Source of the DNA: Ruegeria sp. HKCCD8929
Lineage (GTDB): Bacteria > Pseudomonadota > Alphaproteobacteria > Rhodobacterales > Rhodobacteraceae
Direction: 5' to 3'
Length of the DNA: 64,000 nt
NCBI RefSeq assembly: GCF_013031405.1
Contig: NZ_WPZY01000011.1
Coordinates: forward strand, 1 to 64,000
Part shown: positions 27,032 through 46,863 of the stretch, in pieces
Position numbering within the stretch: the first letter of the stretch is position 1
Layout of the letters: each line of letters starts with the position of its first letter
Program-made: the position numbers and the translations under genes
Notes under the pieces: generated by a model
Databases searched by the model: none
The model's input: the letters and a program-made list of their open reading frames with translations, nothing else
What the model was told of the DNA's origin: nothing

Positions 27032-27034
27032 GGC

Positions 27035-27061
27035 AAAAAGGCCCGGTCCTGCGACCGAGCC
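27035..27061 (-). terminator. Intrinsic terminator after nuoN, abutting birA start
   Basis: On the reverse strand GGCTCGGTC-gcag-GACCGGGCC forms a 9-bp stem (one G-U pair) with a 4-base loop, followed at once by TTTTT and then GCC and the birA ATG. Geometry is that of a strong rho-independent terminator for the nuo operon. Because it sits on the birA ribosome-binding region it could also act as an attenuator or translation-blocking hairpin for birA. Confidence 0.82.
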
Positions 27062-27085
27062 CTCCGGTATTTCCTGTGTCCGCGG

Positions 27086-28528: not shown

Positions 28529-28543
28529 GTCTCCAAAGCTCCC

Positions 28544-30085: not shown

Positions 30086-32283
30086 TACTGTGCGCCTCCG
30101 CCGATCGACATCCAGGTGACCAGGGCAGCGATCCCCAGAACCATCCAGAAGGCGTAAGTGAAGATGTAGCCCGACTGCGCCTTGCCTGCGAGACGGGTGA
30201 AATAGGGAACGATGCCCATCGCTACTCCGTTCAGGAAGCCGTCGATTGTGTTGCCGTCGCCGTGTTTCCACAGGAACCGGCCAAGGGCCACGAAGGGTTT
30301 GACGAGAATCGCGTCATAGATCTCGTCAAAGTACCACTTGTTCTTGAGGAACAGGTAGAGGGGCCGCTGGTTCGCCGCCAGCCGCACCGGCAGAGACGGG
30401 TTCACGATGTAGAAGAGATAGGCCAGTGCAAAGCCCAGCACCATGGCGACGAAGGGTGAAACTTTGACCCATTTGGGTGCGGCATGCGCGTCATCCAGCA
30501 CGGTGTTGTCGGGGCCCATATAGATGCCGCCCTCGCCCGGCTTGCCGGCAAACACATAGTGATGCTCGCCCTCGGCCATGGCCTCATCATGGCTGTCCTC
30601 AGCGGCGGCCTCACCATGACCATCATCGGCGGTTGCGGCGGCGGTGTTCTCGCCATGCGCGCTGTCCTGCGCCTCATCGTGATGTTCGGCGGCGGTGCCG
30701 TCGGCGACATGTTCGGCATGGGTATCGGCGTCGTGCCCCTCGGCATGTGCTTCGGCAACCGGGATGCCGTAGAACTTGCCCACCTTGTCAGTGTGGCCGA
30801 AGAACTGGCCATACCAGATCATGCCCGCAAAGATCGCGCCCAGCGACAGCACGCCCAACGGCACCAGCATGGACATCGGGCTTTCATGCGCATGCTCATG
30901 CGTGTGCTTGTCGCCCCGCTCTTCGCCGTAGAAGGTCAGGAAGATCAGGCGCCAGGAATAGAACGAGGTCATGGCAGCGGCGATAACCAGCAGCCAGAAG
31001 CCATAGCTCGATCCGCCCGCGTAGGCGCTTTCGATGATGGCGTCCTTGCTGAGGAACCCGGCAAAGCCGATTGTGGTCAGCGGGATGCCGACGCCGGTGA
31101 TGGCCAGTGTGCCGATCATCATCGCCCAGAAGGTATAGGGGATCTTTTTCCGCAGATTGCCATAGTTCATCATGTCCTGCTCATGGTGCATCGCATGGAT
31201 GACCGAGCCGGCGCCAAGAAACAGCAGCGCCTTGAAGAAGGCGTGCGTGAACAGGTGGAACATCGCCGCCGAATACATGCCCACACCGGCGGCCACGAAC
31301 ATATAGCCCAGCTGCGAACAGGTCGAATAGGCGATGACGCGCTTGATGTCGGTCTGCACCAGACCAACGGTCGCGGCGAAGAACGCGGTTGAGGCGCCCA
31401 ACACGGTCACGAAGCCAGCAGCGCCCGGCGCGAATTCATAAAGCGGCGACATGCGGCAGACCAGGAACACGCCAGCGGTCACCATGGTCGCAGCGTGGAT
31501 CAGTGCCGAGACCGGCGTCGGGCCTTCCATCGCGTCCGGCAGCCAAGTGTGCAGGATCAGCTGCGCAGACTTGCCCATGGCACCGATGAAGAGCAGCACG
31601 CAAACCAGCTCGATTGAGCTCCACTCGCCCCACAGGAAGGTCAGCTGGCTTTCGGCCAGCGAGGGCGCGGCCTCAAACACGTCCGACAGGTTGATGCTGT
31701 CGGTCAGGAAGAACAGCGCGAAGATCCCCAGCGCAAAGCCGAAATCGCCCACGCGGTTGACGATGAACGCCTTGATCGCTGCGGCATTGGCCGAAGGTTT
31801 GCGATAGTAGAAGCCGATCAGCAGGTACGAGGCGACGCCGACACCCTCCCAGCCAAAGAACATCTGCACCAGGTTGTCCGAGGTCACCAGCATCAGCATC
31901 GCGAAGGTGAAGAAGCTGAGATAGGCGAAGAAACGCGGCTTATAGCTCTCGCCCTCGCGCCATTGCGGGTCGTGACCCATGTAGCCAAAGCTGTAGAGAT
32001 GTACGAAAGCCGAAACGGTCGTCACCACGATCAGCATGATGGCGGTCAGCCGGTCCAGACGGATCGCCCATGAGGTCGACAGCGAACCGCTTTCGATCCA
32101 GCGCAGGATCTCAATCTGCTGGGTATGGCCGTCAAAGACGAAGAACACGATCCAGCTGAGCAGACAGGCGAGGAACAGCAGGCCCGTGGCGGTCCACATG
32201 GCAGCCTTTTCGCCGATGAATTTCCAGCCGAACCCGCACAGGATGGCGCCCACCAGCGGGGCAAAGAGGATGGTTGTTTCCAT
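30085..32283 (-). CDS. nuoL: NADH-quinone oxidoreductase subunit L with His/acidic-rich insertion
   Basis: 732 residues, about 100 longer than many bacterial NuoL proteins. Core motifs are normal ([55 protein letters not shown]), and the C-terminal lateral helix region is present. The extra length is a soluble insertion at about residues 458-578: a short THEHAHES cluster, a membrane segment, then a run very rich in His, Asp, Glu and Ala ending at EGEHHYVF. It lies between late membrane helices. A metal-binding or flexible linker role is possible; nothing in the core looks damaged. Confidence 0.95.
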
Positions 32284-32289
32284 GATCTC

Positions 32290-32595
32290 TTACCCCTTCA
32301 TCATGTTGACGTCTTCCACCGCGATGGAGCCGCGGTTGCGGAAGAAGCAAACCAGAATGGCGAGCCCGATGGCAGCCTCGGCAGCGGCAACGGTCAGCAC
32401 GAAAAGCGTGAAGACCTGCCCCACCAGATCGTCAAGGAAGCTGGAGAACGCCACGAGGTTGATGTTCACCGCCAGCAGCATCAGTTCGATGCTCATCAGC
32501 AGGATGATGACGTTCTTGCGGTTCAGGAAGAGACCGAAGATGCCGATGACGAACAGCGTCGCCGCGACCGTAAGATAGTGTTCAAGTCCGATCAT
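32290..32595 (-). CDS. nuoK: NADH-quinone oxidoreductase subunit K
   Basis: 101 residues, three membrane helices, the normal size. The conserved membrane glutamates are in [18 protein letters not shown] and [14 protein letters not shown]. Forms part of the proton path next to NuoJ and NuoN. Spaced 4 bp after nuoJ and 6 bp before nuoL. Confidence 0.96.
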
Positions 32596-32599
32596 CGTC

Positions 32600-33202
32600 T
32601 TATAGTCCCTGCCCCGGTTTCACGTCCTTGAGTTCCATCGCCTGCGCCGGGTCGCGCATCATCTGGCCGATGATATCCTGACGCTTGATGTCCTGACGGT
32701 GGCGCAGTGTCAGAACGATGGCGCCGATCATGGCCACCAGCAGGATCAGGCCCGCCAGTTGGAACAGAAGGAAGTATTGATCATAGAGGATAAGCCCCAA
32801 CGCCTCGGTGTTGTGGCGGTCCGTCGGGATCGGCTGGGCCAGTTGCCCCGCCGCGCCTTCAGCGGTTTCCCAGGCTCCGAAGGCCATGACGAACTGCATC
32901 AGGATCACCAGCCCGATCAGCAGCGCCAGCGGCATGTAGCGTGCCATCTCGGCCTTGAGCTCGGCAAAGTCCACGTCCAGCATCATCACCACGAACAGGA
33001 ACAGCACCGCGACCGCGCCCACATAGACGATGATCAGCAGCATCGCGACGAACTCGGCCCCCAGGAGCACGAACAGCCCCGCCGACGAGATGAAGGACAG
33101 GATCAGCCACAGCACCGAATGCACCGGCTGGCGGCTGATCACGGTGAACAGCCCCCCGGTGATGGCGCTGATGGCAAAGAGGTAAAAGGCAAATACGCTC
33201 AT
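32600..33202 (-). CDS. nuoJ: NADH-quinone oxidoreductase subunit J
   Basis: 200 residues, five membrane helices. Recognised by the [20 protein letters not shown] segment and [20 protein letters not shown], with the pi-bulge-forming Tyr/Gly region of TM3. ATGA-type 4-bp overlap with the preceding carboxymuconolactone-decarboxylase-like gene. Confidence 0.95.
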
Positions 33203-33609
33203 TGGTCATCGTCCCCTTGTTCGCCCATGGCCTCCTGCGCCAGTTCCAGCGCGCGGGTCATGGCCGGGATGCCAGCGAATACCGACATCTGACCGATCGT
33301 TTCCACGATCTCCTGTTTCTTGGCGCCCGCCTCGACGGCGTGGCGCACGGTCTGGCGCACGGCGGTGTCGGCTTGCGCGCCTTGGCAGGTCAGCCCGGCC
33401 AGCGTCAGCAGCAACCGGGTCTTGGCATCCAGACCGTCGGTGTTGACGGCATTGCCGAACATCATCTCCATGACCTCTTTGGGCATGGTCGGCCACAGCG
33501 CCTCGAACCCCTTGGGCGAGAAGTTCTCGAGCCCCGGGTTGAACGCCCTGGCCATGTCCTGGGCCTGCTTGAGCATCTGCTCGAATGGGTTTTTGGCCGT
33601 CTCACTCAT
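33199..33609 (-). CDS. Carboxymuconolactone decarboxylase-like protein in nuo operon
   Basis: 136 residues, no signal peptide. The central fold matches the CMD/AhpD family ([54 protein letters not shown]). It overlaps both nuoI and nuoJ by 4 bp, so it is made with them. The usual AhpD CxxC pair is absent: only one Cys (TCQGA). The catalytic His of true CMD enzymes also appears replaced. This suggests a structural or assembly role rather than decarboxylase or peroxidase chemistry (inference). Confidence 0.8.
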
Positions 33610-34100
33610 CTGTACGGCGCGTCCAGTTCGAGGTTGCGGGCGATCTCAGCCTCCCAGCGCTCGCCATTCTCAAGCAGTTTGGCCTTGTCATAGAACAGCT
33701 CTTCGCGGGTCTCCGTGGCGAATTCGAAATTGGGGCCTTCGACGATGGCATCGACCGGACAGGCCTCTTGGCAGAAACCACAATAGATGCACTTGGTCAT
33801 GTCGATGTCATAGCGCGTGGTGCGGCGGCTTCCATCCTCACGCGGTTCGGCGTCGATGGTGATGGCCTGCGCCGGGCAGATCGCCTCGCAGAGTTTGCAG
33901 GCGATGCAGCGTTCCTCTCCGTTCGGGTAACGGCGCAGCGCGTGTTCACCACGAAAGCGCGGGCTGAGCGGGCCTTTTTCATGCGGGTAGTTCACGGTGG
34001 CCTTGGGCGCGAAGAAATACTTCAGACCCAACTTCATGCCGACCCAGAAGTCCTGAAGCAGGAAGTATTTGGCCGCGCGGGTGTAGTCGATATTTGCCAT
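33606..34100 (-). CDS. nuoI: NADH-quinone oxidoreductase subunit I
   Basis: 164 residues. Carries the N6a and N6b [4Fe-4S] clusters: [16 protein letters not shown] and [16 protein letters not shown], both complete CxxCxxCxxxCP motifs. The N-terminal amphipathic stretch anchors it on NuoH. It starts 2 bp after the nuoH stop. Confidence 0.97.
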
Positions 34101-34102
34101 TG

Positions 34103-35140
34103 TCAGCCTCCCACGCTCCAGCGGGCAAAGGCGCCCCAGAACCAGTCGAATTTCGCCGCGAAGGCCACGAAGACCACCCAGGCCAGCGAGAAGGGCAGGA
34201 AGACCTTCCAGCCCAGCCGCATAAGCTGGTCATAGCGGTAGCGGGGGGTGATGGCCTTCACCATCGCGAAGATGAAGAAGAAGAACGCCATCTTGGCGAC
34301 CATCCACAGCACGCCGTCGGGCAGGCCCGGGATCGGCGACAGCCAGCCACCGAAGAACAGCAGCGACGTCAGCGCGCACATCAGGAAGATGGCGATGTAT
34401 TCACCTGCCATGAACAGCAAGAACGGCGTGGCCGAGTATTCCACCTGATAACCCGCAACCAGTTCCGATTCCGCTTCCGGAAGGTCAAACGGAGGCCGGT
34501 TAGTCTCGGCGAGCGCCGAGATGAAGAACAGGAAGACCATCGGGAAATGCGGCAGCCAGTACCAGCTGAAGAAGCCGAAACGGCCATCCTGCGCCTGAAC
34601 GATGTCGCCGAAATTCATCGATCCAGTTGAGATGATCACACCGATGATGATCAGACCGATGGAGACCTCGTAGGAAATCATTTGCGCGGCCGAGCGCAGT
34701 GAACCAAGAAACGGGTACTTTGAGTTCGACGCCCAACCGCCCATGATCACGCCATAAACCTCCAATGAGGAGACGGCGAAGACGTAGAGAATGGCGACGT
34801 TGATATCGGACAGCACCCAGCCGTCATTGAATGGGATCACCGCCCAGGCGATCATGGCCAATACGAAGCTGGTCAGGGGCGCGAGGATGAATACGGTGCG
34901 GTCGGCCCCGGCGGGAATGACCACTTCCTTGACCACGTATTTCAGCGCATCCGCCACCGATTGCAGCAGGCCGTAGACGCCCACCACGTTGGGGCCCCGG
35001 CGCATCTGGACAGCGGCCCAGATCTTGCGGTCGCCATAGACGAGGAAAAGCAGCGAGATCATCACAAAGGCAACAACTGCAAGCACTTGCGCCAGGATGA
35101 TGATGGCTATGCCGCCTGGGGTGTCAAAGAATTCAGCCAT
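34103..35140 (-). CDS. nuoH: NADH-quinone oxidoreductase subunit H
   Basis: 345 residues, about eight membrane helices. It forms the quinone channel. Signatures: [23 protein letters not shown] near the N-terminus (quoted by its ends QMRRGPN and ADALK), [18 protein letters not shown] with its acidic E-channel residues, and [10 protein letters not shown]. The family-typical loop with Arg/Glu residues facing the quinone site is intact. Confidence 0.97.
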
Positions 35141-35146
35141 TGGTCC

Positions 35147-35533
35147 TCACACCGTGGGTATTCCGTTTTCCGCGCAGGCTTCGACCTCGACGCGCGCGTC
35201 GATGATCTTCAACCCCTGCGGCTGGGCGGGCGAGATGGTGTAAACAGCATCTGCCGTCCATACGCCACCCTTTTCGTTCACATTCGTCCGCAAATGCCGG
35301 GCATAGCCAAAGCCATTGTCCAGCGCATATTGCGCGACCGCGCATTGGGCGTAGGCCACCACATCCTCACCCTGATCGGTCCCCGAGACCGAGACATCCA
35401 TCTGCACCAGATCGTCGTCCAGCGGCACCGCCTGGGCCCCCAGATATTCCGGGGGCTCCCGCGTCTCGTCCGCGCCGGGTTGCTCGGCGCAGGCCGCCAG
35501 AGCCAAGGGAGATATGAGCGCCAGCCGGATCAT
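35147..35533 (-). CDS. Small hypothetical lipoprotein in nuo operon
   Basis: 128 residues. A short signal peptide ends in the lipobox LAAC (Cys at about residue 15), so the mature protein would be a lipoprotein with a periplasmic domain of about 110 residues containing two further cysteines (YAQCAV, VEACAEN). No domain recognised. It overlaps nuoG by 4 bp and is followed by nuoH after 6 bp, so it is co-expressed with complex I. Its periplasmic location places it on the opposite side from the peripheral arm. Confidence 0.75.
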
Positions 35534-37551
35534 TCTGCCGCGATCTTCTCGGCGCCGCGTGCCTTGGCCTGAGCCGACAGCTCGGCCATGAGTTGCGAGG
35601 CGCGCGCGATCGGGTTGGTCAGGTAGAAATCCTTGACCGCGTTGCGGAAGGTGGCCTGACCCAGCGGCGCGGCGTCGAGCGCCTGCACCTCGTTCTCGAT
35701 GACCTGATCGATCTTGGCCAGATGCGGCACCACCTCAACCAATTTCTGGCGCAGTTGCGCCAGCGAGTCATAGGGCAGTGCTTCACCCAGCTCAGCAGAG
35801 AGAGCGCGCAGGATGGCCCAGTTCTCCTTGGCGTCGCCTGGGGCAAAACCGGCGCGCATGGCCAGTTGCGGGCGGCCTTCGGTGTTCACGAACAGGCCGT
35901 TTTCCTCGGTATAGGCCGCGCCCGGCATGATCACATCGGCACGGTGAGCACCACGGTCGCCATGGCTGCCCTGATAGATCACGAAGGCGCCCACGCCGAT
36001 CTCGATCTCATCGGCGCCGAGATTGTAGATCACGTCCGCCTCGCTGACCGCGCCCATGCCGCGTTCGTTGGTGGCGTCCACATCCATCGCGCCCACGCGG
36101 GACGCGGCAGTGTGCAGGATCAGCAGGCCGCTTTCGGTGTTGGCGGCAATGGTCTGCGCAGCGGCCAGAACAGCGGCACCGTCAGCCTCTTGCAGGGCGC
36201 CCTGCCCCACGATGACCAGTGAGCGCTTGGCCCTGATCTCATCATCGCCGCCCATGTCCACGACTTGGTTCAGCGCGGCTCGGTCGTTGCCCACATGGTA
36301 GTAGTCATAGGTCAGATCGGCGGCAGGCCCGACCAGCGCCACCTCGGCACCATGCGCCCAGGCCTTGCGGATGCGAGCGTTCAGCACCGGCGCCTCGTCG
36401 CGCGGGTTGGTGCCGATCAGCAGGATGCGTTCGGCGCTGTCGATATCCTCGATGGCGGCGGTCCCGGCATAAGCGCCGCGATTGCCCGTAGGCAGTTTGG
36501 CACCATCGGTGCGGCATTCCACGACACCGCCCTTGCCCTCGACCATCTGCTTCAGCGCAAAGGTGGCCTCGACCGGTGCCAGATCGCCGACGATCCCGGC
36601 CAGCTTTTTCGCACCGTTGATCGCCTTTGCCGTTGCCGCCAGCGCCTCAGGCCAGGTGGCCGGTTTCAGCTTGCCGTCGACGCGCACATAGGGCTTGTCC
36701 AACCGCTGGCGGCGCAGGCCGTCCCAGACAAAGCGGGTCTTGTCGCTGATCCATTCCTCGTTCACGCCGTCATGGTTGCGCGGCAGAAAGCGCATCACTT
36801 CGCGACCCTTGGTATCCACGCGAATGTTCGAACCCAGAGCATCCATCACGTCGATGCTCTCGGTCTTGGTCAGTTCCCATGGGCGGGCAGTGAAGGCATA
36901 CGGCTTGGAGGTCAGCGCCCCCACCGGGCACAGGTCGATGATATTGCCCTGCAGGTTCGAATCTAGCGTCTGGTTCAGATAGGACGTGATCTCGGCGTCT
37001 TCACCGCGCCCGGTCTGGCCCATCTGAGTGATCCCGGCCACTTCGGTCGTAAAGCGCACGCAGCGGGTACAGCTAATGCAGCGCGTCATCGCAGTACCAA
37101 CTAGCGGGCCGAGGTCGAGATCATCAACCGCCCGCTTGGCTTCCCGGAAGCGCGTGCCGGACAGACCATAGGCCATTGCCTGGTCCTGCAGATCACACTC
37201 CCCACCCTGATCGCAGATCGGGCAGTCGAGCGGATGGTTAATGAGTAGGAACTCCATCACCCCCTCGCGGGCCTTCTTCACCATGGGTGAGTTGGTCTTG
37301 ACCACCGGCGGCTGACCTTCCGGTCCCGGGCGCAAATCGCGCACCTGCATGGCGCAGGAGGCCGCCGGTTTCGGCGGGCCGCCCACGACCTCGACCAGGC
37401 ACATGCGGCAATTGCCCGCAATCGACAGACGCTCGTGATAGCAGAAGCGCGGCACCTCGACCCCGGCCTGTTCACAGGCCTGGATCAGAGTCATCGCCCC
37501 GTCCACTTCGATCTCTTGTCCGTCGATATTGATCTTGCGAAGGTCAGACAT
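35530..37551 (-). CDS. nuoG: NADH-quinone oxidoreductase subunit G
   Basis: 673 residues. N-terminal [2Fe-2S] ferredoxin-like domain ([19 protein letters not shown]), then the His-ligated [4Fe-4S] site ([19 protein letters not shown]) and a [11 protein letters not shown] cluster motif, followed by a molybdopterin-oxidoreductase-like domain without cofactor. The length matches the short alphaproteobacterial/mitochondrial type rather than the 900-residue E. coli type. The gene lies after a five-gene accessory block that separates it from nuoF. Confidence 0.96.
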
Positions 37552-37556
37552 GGCTT

Positions 37557-37961
37557 TCAGTTCGCCCTCAAATACACGCCGATCGCGCTGTTTCTTTTGA
37601 TCTCCGCGCGTCCCAGCGCGCAGAAAGTTTCCGGTCTTTCGTAAGTGACGCCTTTCTGCGCCAGATACGCCTCACCCTTGGCCCGCATCCGCGCCTTTTC
37701 CGCGTCCGATTCGACATAGGCACGGATCTCGGAATCCGAGTAGCCCAGCGAATTTGCCTTGGACCGCAACCTCCACATCACCCCGATCGCTTTCATGCGC
37801 CGTCCCGCGATCGCGTCGCATTGCTTGGAAATCTCGTTTGCGATGGCGATGTAGTAGAGCTCGTTGTCGATCTCCTTGACTTCGCGCAAGGACGGTTTGG
37901 CCTGAGCCAGCGTGGGCGCAGTCAGCAGGAGCGACAGGGCAACGGTTTTGAGAACTGACAT
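37557..37961 (-). CDS. DUF5333-type exported protein (paralogue A)
   Basis: 134 residues from the ATG at 37961 (AAGGGA upstream). The signal peptide ends at TLAQAKPS; the mature part is helical with two cysteines (ISKQC and ETFCALG). It aligns without gaps to the product of 39385-39792: the two cysteines are exactly 65 residues apart in both, GV precedes the second by nine residues, and both end 20 residues after it with an IGxxL motif. Unknown function; two copies in one complex I operon suggest a paired or assembly role. The nuoG gene follows after 5 bp. Confidence 0.78.
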
Positions 37962-37972
37962 GACATATCCCT

Positions 37973-37995
37973 TCGATCTGGAAGCACCAGATCGA
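37973..37995. other. Perfect 9-bp hairpin upstream of the DUF5333 gene
   Basis: TCGATCTGG-aagca-CCAGATCGA forms a 9-bp perfect stem with a 5-base loop. It sits just upstream of the ribosome site of the DUF5333 gene (start 37961) and about 65 bases after the preceding gene. There is no T-run, so it is not a clear terminator; an operator, a processing site or a 5'-end stabilising hairpin is possible. Confidence 0.5.
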
Positions 37996-38059
37996 GGCGT
38001 TGCGGGCGCGTTATTCAATAACGAGAGGCCCGAAAGGCGGGGATATGCCGTAACAGATC

Positions 38060-38407
38060 TCATGGCCGCTGACAGGTTCCCGCAAAGGTCATCTTGTCAT
38101 CGACGACACGCAGTTGCTCGGTGTCGGGTCCGGTTTTCCAGTCGATCTTGGACGTACCGTAGTTTTCGATGCAGTATCGGGTGCCGGCATAACGCCCGGC
38201 CTCGCGCGCACCGTCGAGCGAGGCCGAAACCCCGTTGATCGACACAGTGAAGTCGGCGCGGCTGACCTTCTTGTCCACCACCTTGGCCTTGGTGCGGAAG
38301 GCGTGGCCATCAAAAAGAACCCGGTCCTTCTTGCGCTGAATAGAGCAGCCGGCGGTCACAGCCAATGCGCCAATCAGCCCGAGCATTATCGCGTGCTTGC
38401 GTGTCAT
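38060..38407 (-). CDS. Hypothetical small lipoprotein
   Basis: 115 residues from the ATG at 38407, preceded by GGAGGG; the longer frame to 38503 is unlikely. The signal peptide ends in the lipobox VTAGC (Cys at about 20). The mature part has two cysteines (TRYCIEN, AGTCQRP) that could pair, and a short basic region (IQRKKDR). No family recognised. It lies within the accessory block between nuoF and nuoG, 56 bp after the DUF3291 gene. Confidence 0.72.
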   Translation of the reverse strand: MTRKHAIMLGLIGALAVTAGCSIQRKKDRVLFDGHAFRTKAKVVDKKVSRADFTVSINGVSASLDGAREAGRYAGTRYCIENYGTSKIDWKTGPDTEQLRVVDDKMTFAGTCQRP

Positions 38408-38463
38408 TCCGTGCCCTCCCGCTCCGGCGGCCTGTTGGATATGCGAATCCTGCGTCATCGCGT

Positions 38464-38967
38464 TCACTCCGCCGCTACCGGCGCGCAGCCATGGCTGCGC
38501 CACATGGTGGCTTCTTTCACTTCGTTCCAGCCGAATGCATGGTCGCTGGGACCATGGGCCCGCAGGTGCTTCAGGCGTTCCAATGCCTCGCTCAACGTTG
38601 GCTTATGGCCCTTCGGCACCCACCACATGACGAAATGCATCTCGCCCAGAAGTTCGAACCACTCCTGCCGACGCTCATAGAATTGCCGGTGGATGGTTCC
38701 CCAGACGAACCGTTCCAGGCTGGGCGTATCCTCCCAGACCGTAAGATTGGCAACGAATTGCGGATCGTCCCCGATATTGTTTTCGGTGTTGCCGGTCCCC
38801 GGCTCGCCCGAGCCTTCCATCATCCAGACGAAACCCGGCATGCGCTTGCCCAGCCCGTTCACACGGTCGAGCGCCTCCATGAACTCGGTCACGCGCGGAT
38901 CGTCCGTCGGGGCCAGCAGGCGACCGACGTTCAGTTCGGCCAGGTGATATCCGTCCGGCTGAATCAA
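38464..38967 (-). CDS. DUF3291 family protein
   Basis: 167 residues if it starts at the TTG at 38967, which overlaps the MAPEG stop; an ATG at 39015 would give 183 residues but overlaps MAPEG by 52 bp. DUF3291 pattern: YHLAELNVGRLLAP, RVTEFMEALDRVNGL, PGFVWMMEG, then LTVWEDTPSLERFVWGTIH and HFVMWWVPKGHKP. A ferredoxin-like dimeric alpha/beta-barrel fold of the monooxygenase-like type is expected; no cofactor residues are evident. Function unknown. Confidence 0.78.
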   Translation of the reverse strand: MIQPDGYHLAELNVGRLLAPTDDPRVTEFMEALDRVNGLGKRMPGFVWMMEGSGEPGTGNTENNIGDDPQFVANLTVWEDTPSLERFVWGTIHRQFYERRQEWFELLGEMHFVMWWVPKGHKPTLSEALERLKHLRAHGPSDHAFGWNEVKEATMWRSHGCAPVAAE

Positions 38968-39380
38968 AACGCCGCCACCAATGCCATGAGGCCCAGAACC
39001 GCCATACAGGCCCATCCCGCCACGTAAAAGATCGAGCGCACCCCGCCATGCGGATTGCCTGTGCCGCGCAGATGAATGATCAGCATCAAGATCCGCGCCA
39101 GCAGCGCGAGCGAGGCCAGAAGGTTCACCCAGAACGGGCTGGCGCCGGCAAGGATCGCCGCCACGGTCACCGTCAGGAATGCCGGCAGCGTTTCGGTGCC
39201 GTTCAGATAGGCCCGGTTCAGGCGATAGGCCTTGTCCGCATAGTCCTGTTCAGGCGTAGCTCCAGGGGCCAACCCCTTGCCCTGTTTGGCCAGCGCCGAG
39301 AATGGCGACATGGCCAAAACGATCAGCGTGAAGATCACCAGTGAGGCAATCGCGTGGGAATATGCGTCAAAGCCTTCCAT
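38964..39380 (-). CDS. MAPEG family membrane protein
   Basis: 138 residues from the ATG at 39380 (AAGGAG upstream). Four predicted membrane helices. The loop RAYLNGTETLPAFLTV between helices 1 and 2 is the MAPEG signature (NxxE...). Eukaryotic members are glutathione S-transferases and leukotriene-synthesis proteins; bacterial members mostly lack a known function. Embedded in the nuo operon 4 bp after the DUF5333-like gene. Confidence 0.85.
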   Translation of the reverse strand: MEGFDAYSHAIASLVIFTLIVLAMSPFSALAKQGKGLAPGATPEQDYADKAYRLNRAYLNGTETLPAFLTVTVAAILAGASPFWVNLLASLALLARILMLIIHLRGTGNPHGGVRSIFYVAGWACMAVLGLMALVAAF

Positions 39381-39384
39381 CAAC

Positions 39385-39792
39385 TCACTCCTTGATCAGA
39401 AATCGCCCGATCGTGTCATTCTTGCCCGCCACTTCCTGCGCAAAGGCACACATCTTGCCGGTATTTCCGGGATCGACGCCCCGAGCACTCAGAACCGCTG
39501 CCGCCTGTTGTTCCAGCCAGGCTGTCTTTCCGTAAATCAAAAGCCGCCGCATCATGCGCTTGTTCAGCCCCTGTTCTGCCGCCATGTCGGACGCAGCGTG
39601 AACGAACTGCTGATAGTCCGAGCCACCGATCCGGCCGATCCCCTGGCATGAGCTGCTGATCATGTCCGCCGCGAAAATCTGGCCGACAGCCTGGTCAAGC
39701 GCGGCGGTGCTGTCGGCAGACGCAGAGCCTGCACCCGCCGTGGCAGCGACTGCGGCAAGAGACCGGAGGGTATTTCTGGGACCATTGGTCAT
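39385..39792 (-). CDS. Exported protein, DUF5333-like (paralogue B)
   Basis: 135 residues, ATGA overlap with the nuoF stop. The signal peptide ([20 protein letters not shown]) precedes a helical mature domain with two cysteines (SSSCQG, KMCAFA) separated by 65 residues. The spacing, the GV dipeptide nine residues before the second Cys, and the ending CA-x10-IGxxL match the DUF5333 protein at 37557-37961 without a gap. It opens the accessory block between nuoF and nuoG. Confidence 0.75.
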
Positions 39793-41087
39793 TCGGCTGC
39801 CATCGCTCCCATGCGGCCAGATTTCTGCGCCTTGATGCGGTCCTCGATCTCTTCGCGGAAGTTGCGGATCAGGCCCTGGATCGGCCAAGCCGCAGCGTCG
39901 CCAAGCGCGCAGATGGTGTGGCCCTCGACCTGTTTGGTGACATCGAACAGCATGTCGATCTCTTCCAGTTCGGCTTCGCCGCGCACCAGACGGTCCATCA
40001 CGCGCATCATCCAGCCGGTGCCTTCCCGGCAGGGTGTGCACTGACCACAGCTTTCATGCTTGTAGAATTTCGACAGACGCCAGATCGCCTTGATGATATC
40101 GGTGGATTTGTCCATCACGATCACCGCAGCCGTGCCAAGGCCCGAGCCCAGCTCGCCGCGCAGATAGTCGAAATCCATGAGCGCGTCGCGCATGTTCTCG
40201 CCGCGCACGCATGGCACGGACGAGCCGCCAGGGATCACCGCCAACAGGTTGTCCCAGCCGCCGCGAATGCCGCCGCAATGGGTCTCGATCAGGTCTTCGA
40301 ATGAGATCGACATCGCCTCTTCGACTACGCAGGGATTGTTCACATGACCCGAGACGGCGAACAGCTTGGTACCCGCATTGTTGGGGCGGCCAAAGCCTAC
40401 GAACCAATCAGCGCCGCGCCGTAGGATGGTGGGTACCACGGCGATGGATTCGACGTTGTTCACCGTGGTCGGACAGCCATAAAGGCCCGCGCCCGCCGGA
40501 AACGGGGGCTTCATGCGCGGCATGCCCTTTTTGCCTTCCAGGCTTTCGATCAGGGCGGTTTCCTCGCCGCAGATATAGGCGCCTGCGCCGTGGTGCAGGA
40601 ACAGGTCGAAATCCCATCCCGAACCGGCAGCGTTCTTGCCCAGCAGCCCTGCATCATAGGCTTCGTCAATCGCGGCCTGAAGCGCCTCGCGCTCGCGGAT
40701 GTATTCACCGCGGATGTAAATGTAGCAGGCATGCGCGTTCATCGCGAAGGACGCAATCAGGCAACCCTCGATCAGCGTGTGCGGATCATGACGCATGATC
40801 TCGCGGTCCTTGCAGGTGCCGGGCTCGGATTCGTCCGCGTTCACAACAAGATAGGCCGGACGCCCGTCGCTTTCCTTGGGCATGAACGACCATTTCAGAC
40901 CAGTGGGAAAGCCGGCGCCGCCGCGCCCGCGCAGACCTGAGTCCTTCATCGTCTGAATGATCCAGTCACGCCCCTTTTCGATCAGGCCAGCGGTGCCGTC
41001 CCAATGCCCCCGGGCCTGCGCGCCTTTCAGCGTGCGCTCGTGCATCCCGTAGATGTTGGTAAAGATCCGGTCCTGATCCTTCAGCAT
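39789..41087 (-). CDS. nuoF: NADH-quinone oxidoreductase subunit F
   Basis: 432 residues. Binds NADH, FMN and the N3 [4Fe-4S] cluster. Motifs: [20 protein letters not shown] (NADH/FMN), [13 protein letters not shown]-type block seen as [18 protein letters not shown], and the C-terminal cluster [15 protein letters not shown] plus a downstream cysteine ([13 protein letters not shown]). Length normal. A DUF5337 gene precedes it by 8 bp. Confidence 0.97.
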
Positions 41088-41095
41088 CGCTCGAC

Positions 41096-41323
41096 TTACC
41101 TTTGGCTATCCTGACGCATGCGCCAGAGTTGAAAAATGTTGACCCCCGCATAGATAAACCCCGCCAGCGCGGCGAAGTCGAACAGCAGGGCATACCGGCC
41201 CGGCAGGCCGATGGCGGGACCGATGAACAGGGTCAGCGCAAGCCAAGCCAGCATGGTCACCGCGATGACCAGTCCGATGTAGCGGCCCTTGCGGGCTATG
41301 GCGTGTTCCTTGTCCGTGCTCAT
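41096..41323 (-). CDS. DUF5337-type small membrane protein
   Basis: 75 residues from the ATG at 41323; a longer frame exists but its start is unsupported. Two membrane helices ([20 protein letters not shown] and [20 protein letters not shown]) with basic ends. Matches in layout the DUF5337 proteins found between nuoE and nuoF in Rhodobacteraceae. Probably a complex I-associated or assembly membrane protein (inference from position). Confidence 0.75.
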
Positions 41324-41383
41324 CGCTTCCGGTTCATCCCGGCGCCCATCGGATGAGGACGCCCATTGTCTCATTCCCGGCCC

Positions 41384-42523
41384 CTATTTCTCGTAGGTGC
41401 CTTCATCCTTGGCGCGTTTGGCGAAATCGGTCTCTTCGCCCGCTGCCAGTTGTGCCGCCTGTTCGATCCAGCCATCACGCTCGATCCGGCCCTTGAACTT
41501 GAGCCGGGCATCGACCCAGGCCACATGCGCCGGGGTCCAGGCCGCGATCTGGTCGAAATGGTAAAAGCCCAGTTCGTTCAGCGTCTGCTCCAGCTTGGGG
41601 CCCACGCCCTTGAGCAGTTTCAGATCGTCCGCCCCGCCTTCACGCGCGGCTTGCAGGGTGTGGGGCTGCTCCTCGGCGGTTGCATCCGCCTTTTCGGCCG
41701 GTTTCGCGGCAGGCTTGGCCGCCTTGGCTTCTTCGGCCTGTTTCACGGCGGGTTTCGGCGCCGCTGGCGCTGCTGGCGGTTTTTCCGACGCCTTCGTGCT
41801 AGCGGTTTTGCCATCCTCGCCCAGCCAAGGGGTCAACAGCGGCACTTCGGTCCCGTCGATCCGTTTGACGCTGTCGCCAATATCGGCGGCCAGTTGCACC
41901 GAGGCGTTGTATTGTGTCCGGCCGCTTTCATACTCGGTCAAGCTGGTCAGCCCCTTGAGCGGTTCCGCGCCGTAGCGGCCATTCTGCGGACCCGGTACCG
42001 GCACCTTGCCTGCGGTCAGATCGTCAATGATCCGGGCAAAACTCTCGGAGGTCAGATCCTCGTAGTAGTCCTTACCGATCTGCGCCATCGGCGCGTTGGT
42101 GCAGGAGCCGAGGCATTCCACCTCTTCCCAGCTCAGCTTGCCATCGGGGGACACCACATGCGGCTTGTCGGCGATTTTCTCGCGGCAGACCGCGATCAGA
42201 TCCTCGGCGCCGCAGATCATGCAGGACGTGGTACCGCAGACCTGAATATGTGCAACGGAGCCAACCGGTTGCAACTGAAACATGAAGTAAAAGGAAGCAA
42301 CCTCAAGCACGCGGATATAGGCCATGCCCAGCATGTCGGCGACGGATTCAATCGCCGGGCGGCTCAGCCAGCCCTCCTGCTCCTGCGCACGCCACAAGAG
42401 CGGGATGACCGCGCTGGCCTGACGGCCCTCGGGGTATTTGGTGATCTGCGCTTCGGCCCAAGCCTGATTGGCGGAGGTAAAGGCAAAGCTGTCGGGTTGT
42501 TCGGGATGCAGACGGCGCAGCAT
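41384..42523 (-). CDS. nuoE: NADH-quinone oxidoreductase subunit E with C-terminal HhH-like extension
   Basis: 379 residues; ordinary NuoE has about 170-240. Residues 1-200 are the thioredoxin-like [2Fe-2S] N1a domain with ligands in [15 protein letters not shown] and [11 protein letters not shown] low-complexity Ala/Lys/Pro linker (about 220-285) follows, then a domain containing [20 protein letters not shown] and [17 protein letters not shown], which is a helix-hairpin-helix-like fold otherwise seen in DNA-binding and ribosomal L21-fused proteins of this bacterial family. The start codon directly follows the stop of the small exported gene upstream (TAAATG). Confidence 0.94.
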
Positions 42524-42796
42524 TTACTTTTCAAGCTCCTCAATCGGAATGCAGACCACGCGGTCTGCGGCCTGCTTCAGCTCGCCGCTCGCGGCAAAAG
42601 CCTGAAAGTCCTCGTCGCTGACATCGAAGCGGCAGATGAATGTCCCCATGGATTCCCCTTCCAGCAAAACCACACCGGGCCGGATCGTCGTGTACCCGAT
42701 CGTATCGGTCACCAGATCGCTGATATCAGGCTGCGTGCCCGCAAAGGCGGGAAGCCCCGCAACGGAGAGAGCACTCAGAGTAAGAAGGCGGTTCAT
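42524..42796 (-). CDS. Small exported protein between nuoD and nuoE
   Basis: 90 residues. The ATG at 42796 overlaps the nuoD stop (ATGA). The signal peptide ends near LPAFAGTQ; the mature domain of about 70 residues has two cysteines ([16 protein letters not shown]). No family recognised. Its stop is directly followed by the nuoE ATG, so translation of nuoD, this ORF and nuoE looks coupled. The longer reading frame upstream is a shadow of nuoD. Confidence 0.75.
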
Positions 42797-44010
42797 CGGT
42801 CGATCTCTCCAAAAACGACGTCCATGGTGCCGATGATGGCGGCAACGTCGGCCAGTTGGTGGCCCTTGGCAACGTGGTCCATGGCTTGCAGGTGCAGATA
42901 CCCCGGCGCGCGCAGCTTGGCGCGGTAGGGTTTGTTGGTGCCGTCGGCGACCAGATAGACGCCGAACTCGCCCTTGGGCGCCTCGACAGCGGCATAGACC
43001 TCGCCCGCGGGCACGTGGAAGCCCTCGGTGTACAGCTTGAAGTGATGGATCAGGCTTTCCATCGAGGTTTTCATGTCCGAACGGCTCGGCGGGGTGATCT
43101 TGCCGCGTGCCAGCACGTCGCCGGGGCAATCGCGCAGCTTGGCGATGGCCTGCTGGATGATCGAGAGCGACTGACGCATTTCCTCCATGCGGACGAGATA
43201 GCGGTCGTAGCAGTCGCCGTTCTTGCCGACGGGGATCTGGAACTCGAACTCATCATAGCATTCATAGGGTTGCGCCCGGCGCAGGTCCCAGGCCAGACCC
43301 GAGCCGCGCACCATGACGCCCGAGAAGCCGTAGTTCAGGATGTCTTCCTCGGTCACCACGCCGATATCGGCGTTGCGCTGTTTGAAGATGCGGTTCTCGG
43401 TCAGCAGCCCGTCGATGTCGTCCAGAACAGCCGGGAATTCGTGGCTCCACGCTTCGATATCGTCCAGCAGTTCCGGTGGCAGGTCCTGATGCACACCGCC
43501 GGGACGGAAATAAGCCGCGTGCAGGCGGGCGCCGCAGGCGCGTTCGTAGAAGACCATCAGCTTTTCGCGCTCTTCGAAGCCCCACAGAGGCGGGGTCAGC
43601 GCGCCGACGTCCATCGCCTGCGTGGTCACATTCAGCAGGTGGTTCAGGATGCGCCCGATCTCGGAATAGAGCACCCGGATCAGAGAGGCCCGGCGCGGCA
43701 CCTCGACCCCGGTCAGTTTTTCGATGGCCAGACACCAGGCATGTTCCTGATTCATCGGCGCCACATAGTCGAGCCGGTCGAAATAGGGCAGGTTCTGCAG
43801 GTAGGTGCGGCTTTCCATCAGCTTTTCGGTGCCACGGTGCAGCAGGCCGATATGCGGGTCGCAGCGCTCGACGATCTCTCCGTCCAGTTCCAGCACCAGA
43901 CGCAACACGCCGTGGGCCGCAGGGTGCTGCGGGCCGAAGTTGATGTTGAAGTTGCGGATCTTCTGCTCGCCCGTCAGAGCGTCTTCGAAGCCCTTGCCGC
44001 CATCCATCAT
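42793..44010 (-). CDS. nuoD: NADH-quinone oxidoreductase subunit D
   Basis: 405 residues from the ATG-ATG at 44010 (AGGAG upstream); the longer frame to 44049 is unsupported. The 49-kDa subunit forms the quinone-reduction site with NuoB. Motifs: [20 protein letters not shown] with the quinone-site His, [20 protein letters not shown] and the C-terminal [19 protein letters not shown]. No hydrogenase cysteines remain, as expected. Confidence 0.97.
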
Positions 44011-44085
44011 CGTGTCTCTCCTGTCCGAGCGCAGTGCCCGGCTTGTCATTCGGTCCGGCCCCGGAGGCCGGTGCTCAGGGTCGGC

Positions 44086-44223
44086 TCAGCGCCGCCCCCG
44101 CTTGTTCTTTTTCGCCTCGGCCGGGACGCGGGCCTTTTCCGCCTGCGCGGCCTTGGCAGCCGCCCCCGCCAGCAACAACCCCAACGCGCCGAGGGCCGCT
44201 AGTTCTCCAAGCAATGTCAGCAT
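44086..44223 (-). CDS. 45-residue membrane-anchored small protein in nuo operon
   Basis: An ORF of 45 codons: MLTLLGELAALGALGLLLAG, a single hydrophobic helix, followed by a strongly basic Ala/Lys tail ending KKNKRGRR. It starts one base after the stop of the 57-codon ORF upstream (TGACATG) and ends about 75 bp before nuoD. Its size makes it easy to miss. Consistent codon usage, tight spacing and a clear one-helix plus basic-tail topology support it as real. Probable accessory or assembly factor of complex I. Confidence 0.62.
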   Translation of the reverse strand: MLTLLGELAALGALGLLLAGAAAKAAQAEKARVPAEAKKNKRGRR

Positions 44224-44224
44224 G

Positions 44225-44398
44225 TCAGCGGCGCTCCAGCTCCTGCAGTTTCATCCCCATCCACCACAACAGCGCAATTGTGCCGAACGGGATCAGACAG
44301 ACCAGACACCAGTATTTGTTGATCCCGAAGAACGGCAGCAGCTTGACCATCGGAATGATAGTCAGCGCAGAAAGGATCAGCCACCAGATGCTTCCCAT
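44225..44398 (-). CDS. 57-residue double-pass small membrane protein in nuo operon
   Basis: 57 codons beginning [20 protein letters not shown] and ending GMKLQELERR. Two hydrophobic segments are separated by a short loop (FFGINKYWC), with two cysteines (WCLVC). The ATG overlaps the nuoC stop by one base (TGATG), a typical coupling signal, and the next small ORF begins one base after its stop. A competing 75-codon frame in the same place has unlikely composition and is rejected. Function unknown. Confidence 0.65.
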   Translation of the reverse strand: MGSIWWLILSALTIIPMVKLLPFFGINKYWCLVCLIPFGTIALLWWMGMKLQELERR

Positions 44399-45003
44399 CA
44401 CGTGTTCTCCTGTTTCTCATCTCCCGGCAGAATGTAGTTCGCACCGTCCCACGGGCTCATGAAGTCGAATTGGCGGTATTCCTGCACCAGGTTGACCGGC
44501 TCATAGACGACGCGCTTTTGCGCCTCGTCATAGCGCACCTCGGTGTAACCGGTGGTCGGGAAATCCTTGCGCAGCGGATAGCCGCGGAAACCATAGTCGG
44601 TGAGGATGCGCCGCAGGTCCGGATGGCCCGAGAACAGGATGCCGAACATGTCGAACACCTCACGCTCGAACCAGTTGGCCGAGGGGTGCACATCGATGAT
44701 CGACGGCACCATGTCATCCTCGCGGATCGACACCCGCAGGCGGATGCGCTGGTTCTGATACATCGACAGGAAGTGATAGACCACGTCGAACCGCTTGGCC
44801 CGCTCCGGATAATCCACACCTGTGATGTCCACCAGGCTCGAGAACTGGCAGTTCCGGTCGGATTTCAGATACTCGACGAATTCCACAAGGTTGGATGGCG
44901 CCACGTCGATGTTCAACTCGCCATACGTCACATCCCAGGCCAGCACGCAATTGGGGCGCTTGAGTTCGATATGCTGCCCGAGTTCGTTCAGTGCTTCGCT
45001 CAT
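44398..45003 (-). CDS. nuoC: NADH-quinone oxidoreductase subunit C
   Basis: 201 residues. The 30-kDa subunit of the peripheral arm, with no cofactor. The signature ERECFD-type region is seen as [20 protein letters not shown] followed by [19 protein letters not shown], which is diagnostic of NuoC. It is a separate gene from nuoD, unlike the E. coli fused form. Overlaps nuoB by 4 bp. Confidence 0.97.
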
Positions 45004-45533
45004 CGTACAATCGTCCCCGTGCGGCGGATCTTGCGTTGCAGCTGCATCAGGCCATAGAGCAGCGCCTCGGCGGTCGGCGGGCAGCCGGGGACGTAGATGT
45101 CCACCGGAACGATGCGGTCACAGCCGCGCACCACTGAATAGGAATAGTGATAGTAACCACCGCCATTGGCGCAGGAGCCCATCGACACCACGTAACGCGG
45201 CTCGGGCATCTGATCATAGACCTTGCGCAGCGCCGGGGCCATCTTGTTGGTGAGCGTCCCAGCCACGATCATCACGTCAGACTGGCGCGGGGAGGCGCGC
45301 GGCGCGATGCCGAACCGTTCCGCATCGTAGCGCGGCATCGAGGTGTGCATCATCTCGACCGCGCAGCAAGCCAGACCGAATGTCATCCAGTGCAACGAAC
45401 CGGTGCGCGCCCAGTTGATGATGTCTTCGGTCGAGGTCAGCAGGAAGCCCTTGTCCTGCAGTTCTGCATTCAGGGCCTGGGTGGCGACTTCCTTGTCGAC
45501 GCCGGCGGTGTTTGCACCCGTCATCACTCCCAT
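45000..45533 (-). CDS. nuoB: NADH-quinone oxidoreductase subunit B
   Basis: 177 residues from the ATG at 45533 (AAAGGGG upstream). The ATG at 45524, which overlaps the nuoA stop as TGATG, is an alternative. Holds cluster N2: [15 protein letters not shown] with the tandem cysteines, [10 protein letters not shown], and [18 protein letters not shown]. The quinone-reducing end of the electron chain. Confidence 0.96.
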
Positions 45534-45889
45534 TCCAGGGCCCCTTTCTTCCATTCATAGGCAAAGCCGATCGTCAGCACCGCCAGGAACACCATCATCG
45601 ACCAGAAGCCGACATCCGAAATGTCGCGGAACCCGACGGCCCAGGGGAACAGCATGGCAATCTCGAGGTCGAAGATGATGAAGAGGATCGACACCAGGTA
45701 GAACCGGACATCGAATTTCATCCGCGCATCGTCGAAGGCGTTGAAGCCGCATTCATAGGCGCTGACCTTTTCGGGATCGGGGTTGCGGACGGCCAGAACC
45801 ACCGCCGCGAGAATCAGGACAATTCCAAGGCCGACGGCGACGACCAGAAACACCAGGATGGGGAGATACTCCCGCAACAGCTCTTCCAC
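45524..45889 (-). CDS. nuoA: NADH-quinone oxidoreductase subunit A
   Basis: 121 residues, GTG start with AAAGGAG upstream. Three membrane helices. The loop [20 protein letters not shown], with the conserved cysteine and acidic residues near the quinone cavity, is diagnostic. First gene of the 14-subunit operon, about 57 bases after the predicted transcription start. Confidence 0.96.
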
Positions 45890-45952
45890 GAGTGGCTCCT
45901 TTCCTGCGCGCGGCTCTTAAGCGCGCCGTCAATTGGCGTGTTGACTGGACAT

Positions 45953-45981
45953 TCTCTACCTGCGCGGGGTCAGAGGGTCAA
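45953..45981 (-). promoter_or_regulatory. Sigma70-type promoter for the nuo operon
   Basis: On the reverse strand TTGACC (-35) is followed after exactly 17 bases by TAGAGA (-10). The transcript would begin near 45946 and carry a leader of about 57 bases before the nuoA GTG. It lies in the 185-bp gap between the enoyl-CoA hydratase gene and nuoA, both on the reverse strand. I saw no clear terminator for the upstream gene here. Confidence 0.5.
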
Positions 45982-46074
45982 CCAAGCGAAAACGCGCAGC
46001 GGCGGTTTAGTCGCGGCGCTAGCCGCCCGGAATTTCGGATGATTTCGCAAACGGCGCCCGCTGCGCAACAGACG

Positions 46075-46863
46075 TCAAACCTGACTGTTCCATGAAGGTT
46101 TTCTCTTGCCGAAAAACGCCGCGATCCCCTCGCGCGCCTCGTCGGTCTTCCACCGGTCCACCAGCGCCTGAATCGTCCGGTCGATCACGTCTTCGTCGAT
46201 CCGGGGGCCAAGGTCGCGGGCCAGTTGCTTGGCGGACGCCACCGCGCCCGGAGCGCAGGCGAGATAGGGGGCCACCTCGGCCTCGACCGCCTCGGCCAGC
46301 TGGTCGGCAGGCACGGATTTGGCCAGCAAGCCCAGTCCCACCGCCTCGGCGACGTCAAAGAGCCGCGCCGACATGAACACCCGCCGTGCCCGCGCCTCGC
46401 CCATCCGGGCGATGACATAGGGCCCGATGGTGGCCGGGATCAGACCCAGCCGCGTCTCGGTCAGGCCCATCTTCAGACTGTCCACCCCAATGGCGATGTC
46501 ACAGACCGAGGCCAGCCCCACCCCACCGCCAAAGGCATTGCCCTGCAAGGCCCCGATCACCGGCTTGGGCAGTGTGTTGAGCGCCTGCAACATCTCGGCC
46601 AGCTTGCGCGCTTCGACAAAACGCGTCTCCGGATCCGCAGCCATCTGGTCCTGCATCCAGCCCAGATCGCCGCCGGCGCAGAACGTCTTACCTGCACCGG
46701 TCAGCACCACCACCCGCACAGCGTTATCCGCAGCCAGCTGGCCCGCCGCCGCGCTCAGATCGGCCAGCATCTGCGCTGACATGGCGTTGTGTTTTTCGGG
46801 ACGGTTGAGGGTCAGCGTCGCGACGCCACGCGCGTCGGTGGAAACATCAATGGTTTCAAACAT
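46075..46863 (-). CDS. Enoyl-CoA hydratase/isomerase, probable methylglutaconyl-CoA hydratase
   Basis: 262 residues from the ATG at 46863, seven bases after AGGAG; in-frame GTG and ATG codons at 46866 and 46869 are alternatives. Crotonase-fold motifs: LTLNRPEKHNAMSAQML, GKTFCAGGDLGWMQ (oxyanion hole) and GNAFGGGVGLASVCDIAIG. Context with methylcrotonyl-CoA carboxylase and HMG-CoA lyase points to hydration of 3-methylglutaconyl-CoA in leucine breakdown. Last gene of the liu cluster; overlaps the kinase gene by 8 bp. Confidence 0.85.
   Translation of the reverse strand: MFETIDVSTDARGVATLTLNRPEKHNAMSAQMLADLSAAAGQLAADNAVRVVVLTGAGKTFCAGGDLGWMQDQMAADPETRFVEARKLAEMLQALNTLPKPVIGALQGNAFGGGVGLASVCDIAIGVDSLKMGLTETRLGLIPATIGPYVIARMGEARARRVFMSARLFDVAEAVGLGLLAKSVPADQLAEAVEAEVAPYLACAPGAVASAKQLARDLGPRIDEDVIDRTIQALVDRWKTDEAREGIAAFFGKRKPSWNSQV

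Follow-up and report, generated by a model that had tools for sequence, protein, structure and literature searches.

Why should a complex I operon carry two genes for small exported proteins whose cysteines are spaced alike, and do the two products act as a pair? The question is raised by the nuo operon of Ruegeria sp. HKCCD8929, which lies on the minus strand of the 64,000-nucleotide stretch of DNA analysed here (contig NZ_WPZY01000011.1, positions 1 to 64,000; hereafter the window). Bacterial complex I is regarded as a bare 14-subunit core plus a few cytoplasmic extras, and Paracoccus and Rhodobacter, which belong to the order surveyed below, offer the closest models of the mitochondrial enzyme that are easy to work with. 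The first of the two genes, P1 (37557..37961, minus strand), adjoins nuoG on its upstream side and encodes 134 residues with a signal peptide (AQA/KPS) and the cysteines Cys48 and Cys114. The second, P2 (39385..39792, minus strand), encodes 135 residues with a weaker signal sequence and the cysteines Cys49 and Cys115. Signal peptides and lipoboxes of the window proteins were judged by eye. A first-pass annotation of the window had described the two as exported paralogues inside the nuo operon and proposed a periplasmic partner of complex I, perhaps a disulfide-stabilised pair. The observation is true and its explanation is modest: these are two members of an unstudied family, DUF5333 (domain of unknown function; PF17267), one the canonical copy and the other a rare extra.

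Two DUF5333 paralogues, one canonical and one rare

P1 and P2 can be aligned without a gap over the 87 residues that run from the first cysteine to the C-terminus in each, with 65 residues between the cysteines and 20 after the second. Of these 87 positions 14 are identical, and the GV, the CA after the second cysteine and the terminal IGxxL stand in register as the annotation had described. This ungapped score was matched in 4 of 20,000 shuffles, or in 36 of 20,000 when the columns of the shared cysteines were omitted. Of 2,000 shuffles 12 matched the Smith-Waterman score, whose gapped alignment departs in part from the ungapped register. BLASTP of P1 against P2 alone gave E 0.004 over 34 residues. 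The PF17267 model covers both proteins over nearly its whole length, with 137.5 bits for P1 and 30.4 bits for P2. Since both pass the curated cut-off of 27 bits, P1 and P2 are, on their sequences, real paralogues of the DUF5333 family, P2 being a divergent member, and the annotation's claim that the nuo operon carries duplicated genes for exported proteins of one family holds on the Pfam matches and the gene order. The profile comparison that it had proposed also returned significant similarity, canonical against extra copies (probability 99.6, E 2.6e-24), and all 42 of 42 members of the extra-copy alignment match PF17267 at E 1 or better. The extra-copy profile was gathered by a model in which canonical copies were already included, which makes Pfam the cleaner test of homology.

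The family is nearly universal in the order and confined in its distribution. Within the order, 267 of 292 genomes (98 of 112 genera) have a PF17267 match, as do only 5 of 289 genomes drawn class-wide, all five from the window's own family Rhodobacteraceae, and none of 14 control genomes. Most matching genomes have a single match, by a model that recognises P2-like copies poorly. At E 0.001 at least 34 of the 292 have two or three matches, a lower bound because the model is weak on divergent copies and missed the extra copy of R. atlantica HKCCD9150. A search with P2 at E 0.01 or better found 3 of 61 genomes, namely the window's own, R. atlantica HKCCD9150 and, as a weak match (E 0.006), one distant genome of the class. 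Among 69 named loci, which were chosen by similarity to P1 and one of which ends short of nuoF, a P2-like copy after nuoF is present in one, again R. atlantica HKCCD9150; in two others the P2 query matches the canonical copy only. The extra copy that follows nuoF in Celeribacter litoreus was missed by the P2 search. A DUF5333 copy lies directly upstream of nuoG in 69 of the 69 loci, the nearest to P1 being those of Ruegeria (best identity 82%). Judged by these comparisons, P1 is the canonical copy, spread across the family Rhodobacteraceae, and P2 is a rare, lineage-restricted and fast-evolving extra.

Cysteines, predicted fold and the divergence of P2

Neither cysteine varies in the aligned sequences, 54 canonical and 42 extra. 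In a larger set of 163 copies, in which some genomes appear twice with different locus numbers, a rule found the pair in 161: all 109 canonical copies and 52 of the 54 extra ones. The canonical spacing is 65 in 107 of 109 copies and 64 in the other 2. In the extra copies it ranges from 61 to 76, mostly 63-64, and is 65 in 6 of 52. The identical spacing to which the annotation gave weight is therefore true of P1 and P2 but less telling than it appeared. As canonical copies keep both cysteines where there is no partner copy, an internal disulfide is the simplest reading, and the predicted bond is most likely internal to each protein. A lipobox-like pattern occurs in 26 of 54 extra copies and is absent from P1 and P2; it was also seen in 7 canonical copies, by eye mostly within an ordinary signal peptide.

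AlphaFold2 models have a mean predicted local distance difference test (pLDDT) score of 93.8 for P1 and 87.3 for P2 and share their order of elements: a long first helix, three helices, a last helix with the second cysteine, and two short strands. In P1 as modelled, helix 1 spans 29-47 and is followed at once by Cys48, and the last helix, 111-122, contains Cys114. The models depict P1 and P2 as five-helix domains. Single-sequence searches of the PDB with P1 and P2 gave nothing better than E 0.6, the canonical profile reached E 0.21 at best, and Foldseek with both models gave nothing under E 0.9. Two PDB matches of the extra-copy profile (E 8.6e-6 and 8.4e-5) were rejected, being designed repeat proteins whose scores are sums over weak repeats.

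The two copies have diverged at very different rates. Between the window and R. atlantica HKCCD9150, identity is 96.8% for NuoF, 91.0% for NuoG (553 residues), 74.6% for P1 and 43.6% for P2; on these values, from one genome pair, P1 and P2 are not evolving as one unit. This bears directly on the pair that the annotation had proposed, in which P1 and P2 would be structural periplasmic partners of complex I, specific to each other and perhaps linked by a disulfide. The common operon, strand, fold and cysteine spacing speak for it. Against it, apart from the lack of joint evolution, nearly all relatives examined are without a P2-like copy, cysteines are retained in single-copy loci, and the available excerpts of a Paracoccus complex I study (PMC11522691) name no such subunit. 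The co-occurrence check suggested along with the pair found P2 absent from most relatives. We consider a specific pair very improbable, and the disulfide-linked or obligate form of it was rejected on the distribution, with mostly a single family match per genome and one P2-like copy in 69 loci, and on the cysteines of single-copy loci.

Divergence of this degree also raises the possibility that P2 alone has no function and is a duplicate in decay. Its rarity and its loss of residues conserved in P1, such as the Glu of the last helix, agree with this. However, P2 keeps an open frame, a signal sequence, both cysteines, a confident model and a 4-nucleotide overlap of its start with the nuoF stop, and the R. 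atlantica relative stands in the same place at 44-47% identity despite saturated synonymous sites. Decay is therefore an unlikely account of P2. In a quick tree, 40 of 40 canonical copies fall on one side of a branch (value 98) and P2 joins only the R. atlantica copy (99). A recent duplication of the Ruegeria P1 is nevertheless a possible origin of P2: approximately unbiased (AU) tests rejected neither its placement in the Ruegeria P1 clade (p 0.746) nor one among the Ruegeria downstream copies (p 0.676), and both constrained trees scored above the free tree. The P2 duplication cannot be dated from so short a tree.

The closest structural likeness was to the PulS/OutS pilotins of type II secretion (PF09691; structures 3utk, 4a56 and 6hcg), which are the three top VIA-align matches of the P2 model (Z 5.5, root-mean-square deviation 4.0-4.1 over 90-92 residues; next match Z 3.1). 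Like P1 and P2, these are exported small helical domains, and theirs is a nested four-helix fold. The disulfide of OutS runs from the residue just past helix 1 to helix 4 (PMC3276575, in the part available), and the cysteines of the P1 model agree with it when compared by sequence position. The OutS fold binds a secretin helix, and OutS is a lipoprotein, according to the same part of that paper. The two groups differ in that DUF5333 belongs to a complex I operon without a secretin, that its cysteine spacing is longer than the 53 or 54 residues of the pilotin family loci seen here, and that P1 and P2 lack the lipobox of a lipid anchor, which many extra copies nevertheless have. Several results weigh against a pilotin reading. 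Hhalign against the pilotins gave a probability of 1.2 for the extra copies, 0.1 for the canonical and 0.3 for the two combined, the combined score of 12.3 falling among those of 100 column shuffles (mean 10.0, top 15.2). PF09691 matched neither P1 nor P2 at E 0.01, and it was absent among 25 of the 33 families matched by the extra copies at E 1. VIA-align with the P1 model gave no pilotin in its matches among 24 candidate chains, Foldseek with the P2 model gave none at E 10 or better, and a Z of 5.5 can mean just a common helical arrangement, VIA-align itself warning of chance for helical folds. Pilotin homology was dropped after the profile comparisons, and only the structural likeness was retained. 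Since neither the P1 model nor Foldseek gave a pilotin, the helical Z carries its warning and profile homology is lacking, we go no further than to say that DUF5333, as modelled, perhaps works like a pilotin, and do not identify it as one.

The nuoF-nuoG slot and the role of DUF5333

The operon reads nuoA, nuoB, nuoC, nuoD, a small exported gene, nuoE, DUF5337, nuoF, P2, a MAPEG gene, a DUF3291 gene, a lipoprotein gene (hypoA), P1, nuoG, a second lipoprotein gene (hypoB), nuoH, nuoI, a CMD-family gene and nuoJ to nuoN, where nuoE was verified against its family model and the remaining nuo names were assigned by eye from the sequences. Both DUF5333 genes thus lie between nuoF (39789..41087, minus strand) and nuoG (35530..37551, minus strand), the upstream and downstream edges of a variable slot; nuoG starts 5 bases after the P1 stop. 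The other contents in the window, all on the minus strand, are the variable cargo genes for a MAPEG-family membrane protein (PF01124; 38964..39383) and a DUF3291 protein (PF11695; 38464..38967), and hypoA (38060..38407), a small lipoprotein with a VTAGC lipobox that is the customary upstream neighbour of P1. HypoA or a relative was seen in most of the slots of the named loci.

Where both nuoF and nuoG could be seen, in 40 loci, each of the 80 copies detected by profile (40 extra) sits inside nuoF-nuoG and on the operon strand. These loci were fetched around P1-type matches, so the completeness of this count rests on the whole-genome search. In 35 whole genomes (the 34 multi-copy genomes and R. 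atlantica HKCCD9150) the copies are grouped within a few kilobases, with a single exception, genome G042. Among the extra copies that were read, 40 of 41 were placed in the slot, and in 18 of 40 the domain starts 120 nucleotides or less from the nuoF stop, as in P2. The far copy of G042 (L044:1925-2953), the sole DUF5333 found remote from nuo, adjoins transposase-like reading frames, and its C-terminal part resembles lipoprotein DUF5333. Across 68 named loci the nuoF-nuoG gap measures 421 to 2319 bp with about ten gene contents, the commonest being MAPEG, hypoA and one DUF5333 (33 of 68); only relatives of the window's genes were named in this count, and their order was taken from reading-frame starts. 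The slot gains and loses MAPEG, DUF3291 and lipoprotein genes as well as DUF5333 copies in changing combinations. The nuoG-nuoH stretch measures 46 to 444 bp (69 loci) and the nuoE-nuoF stretch 114 to 1258 bp (67 loci).

Because genetic linkage, export, a disulfide and frequent renewal come together, a helper at the periplasmic face fits better than a fixed subunit. P1 and P2 would both be Sec-exported five-helix domains, in which one internal disulfide ties the end of helix 1 to the final helix. P1, the canonical copy, shares one operon with complex I, before nuoG and behind its own 98-nucleotide leader. P2 is a lineage-restricted, fast-evolving extra in a slot of coming-and-going small genes. 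DUF5333, stabilised by its disulfide, would then act in the periplasm to help complex I assemble or remain stable, with the extra copies as variants for other clients or conditions. We thus regard P1 and P2 as probably complex I helpers and not an obligate pair; the reading as a whole, with canonical P1, extra P2 and a periplasmic role, is the one we favour, and we hold it tentatively. A bolder version would make DUF5333 a set of diversifying pilotin-like periplasmic chaperones for Rhodobacteraceae complex I, in which the canonical copy behind its structured leader serves the membrane arm, and lineage-specific slot paralogues, soluble or lipid-anchored, tune assembly, localisation or supercomplex partners. 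This we regard as doubtful.

The following points weigh against a complex I helper. Sharing an operon is no proof of sharing a function. For Paracoccus complex I, NDUFS4, NDUFS6, NDUFA12 and a PIMT are described as bound to the core, and no DUF5333-type subunit is named (PMC11522691, in its available excerpts; DUF5333 in that species was not searched for). These supernumerary subunits (NDUFS4, NDUFS6, NDUFA12 and CI-PIMT) are likewise extra proteins of an alphaproteobacterial complex I, but they sit on the hydrophilic domain or heel, and no periplasmic extra is named in those excerpts. A purification of the Paracoccus enzyme gives its composition as known supernumerary subunits, a PIMT and likely contaminants only (PMC8115037, in the portion available). 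Most directly, 25 of the 292 genomes have no PF17267 match, and when 20 of these and 3 with a weak match were checked, nuoF was present in 23 of 23. Of these 23 genomes, 20 had their slot read. In the 17 without a match, nuoF and nuoG are present and no DUF5333-like frame lies in the slot; in the 3 with a weak match (L151, L152 and L157) the slot carries a divergent copy only. In three of the no-match loci (L150, L160 and L162) nuoG starts at or before the end of nuoF or 5 bp or less from it. As these 17 no-match genomes keep nuoF and nuoG without DUF5333, the protein is not obligatory and complex I can dispense with it; DUF5333 as an obligate complex I factor was ruled out on this ground.

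The same slots lend weight to a strong rival, that nuoF-nuoG is a high-expression landing site and DUF5333 a general periplasmic or envelope-stress protein that borrows the nuo promoter and has no role in complex I. Changing combinations of MAPEG, DUF3291 and lipoprotein genes over so wide a range of gap lengths are what such a site would accumulate, and 17 of 17 no-match slots do without DUF5333. A passenger would, however, be expected elsewhere more often, and among the 34 multi-match genomes G042 alone has a far copy, beside transposase-like frames. We regard this as a serious possibility alongside the helper reading that we favour.

No paper on DUF5333 or PF17267 was found in the literature searched, and nothing on a periplasmic assembly factor of complex I for Rhodobacteraceae nuo; the Pfam description is also silent on a multi-copy slot. 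A protein that is probably periplasmic, lies within the nuo operon in about nine tenths of the genomes of the order and has no function or paper that we found is an easy target for genetics, and the main interest lies in its near-universal place in the Rhodobacteraceae complex I operon, the slot that breeds copies, and the leader. In transposon sequencing (Tn-seq) of R. sphaeroides, nuoA to nuoN scored as essential on LB, and the DUF5333 gene is unmentioned in the available text (PMC5513736). The accessible part of PMC4859585 has nothing on the gene, and PMC9696053 ('unidentified reading frames'), as far as its available part goes, is relevant only through a reference title on human mtDNA.

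NuoL (30085-32283, minus strand) has a long, highly variable, acidic and His-rich insert at residues about 497-584 between conserved flanks. It may correspond to the flexible ND5 loop on the periplasmic side that the excerpts of PMC11522691 describe for Paracoccus, and it could bind metal. A link between DUF5333 and this insert was dropped, since the median length was 56 in the 23 no-match or weak-match genomes and 60 in 38 canonical ones (p 0.34). The His count was 5 against 6.5 (p 0.0017, uncorrected for relatedness).

The leader of P1 and the other small genes

The 98 nucleotides that separate hypoA from P1 (37962..38059, minus strand) form a conserved leader with a CATATC, the motif GTTATTGAATAAC at 38010-38022 and a hairpin at 37973-37995 beside the ribosome-binding site. 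With its edges it folds at -43.8 kcal/mol (z -4.97), a value reached in 0 of 200 shuffles. The gap before P1 is exactly 98 nucleotides in 42 of the 69 named loci and 101 in 2. Of the 40 Ruegeria-titled loci, 36 have 98 and 2 have 101, and in the other 2 the start rule took a GTG over an ATG. When 44 loci selected for a gap of 98 or 101 nucleotides were set beside the window, the last 98 nucleotides and the start codon aligned without gaps at 74% mean column identity. The hairpin is supported by covariation, with two-sided changes in 6 of 10 pairs and 25 such cells; shuffles gave 7.3 such cells, and none of 500 gave as many as 25. No Rfam family reached its gathering score in 27000-46500.

A motif of about GNTATTGMATANC, searched with a script pattern slightly looser than this, was found in 106 of 137 loci from many genera, some genomes being counted twice, at no more than 260 nucleotides upstream of the canonical copy, and in 0 of the 20 slots of no-match or weak-match genomes. 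In the window's whole 6.08-Mb genome GNTATTGMATANC occurs three times, once in this leader. The motif's own pairing is weakly supported, its covariation score being reached in 14 of 500 shuffles and its paired cells in 25, which leaves room for a protein-binding site; the GTTATTGCATAAC site may be either an RNA hairpin or a protein-binding site. In either case the conserved leader offers a second, independent handle on the control of the operon.

Other gaps of the operon also hold small genes, all on the minus strand. HypoB (35147..35533), in the nuoG/nuoH gap, encodes a small lipoprotein with a LAAC lipobox. HypoA and hypoB are lipoproteins of unknown family that flank nuoG, hypoA beyond P1, with two further cysteines each. 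A small protein with two cysteines and a signal sequence seen by eye (42524..42796), for which no family match was found in Pfam or NCBIfam, fills the nuoD/nuoE gap, and DUF5337 (PF17272; 41096..41374) the nuoE/nuoF gap. NuoE itself (41384-42523) has a C-terminal extension at residues about 257-362, which scores, far under the cut-offs, with NCBIfam models of extended L21, S2 and the phasin PhaH and would be an add-on domain common to unrelated proteins.

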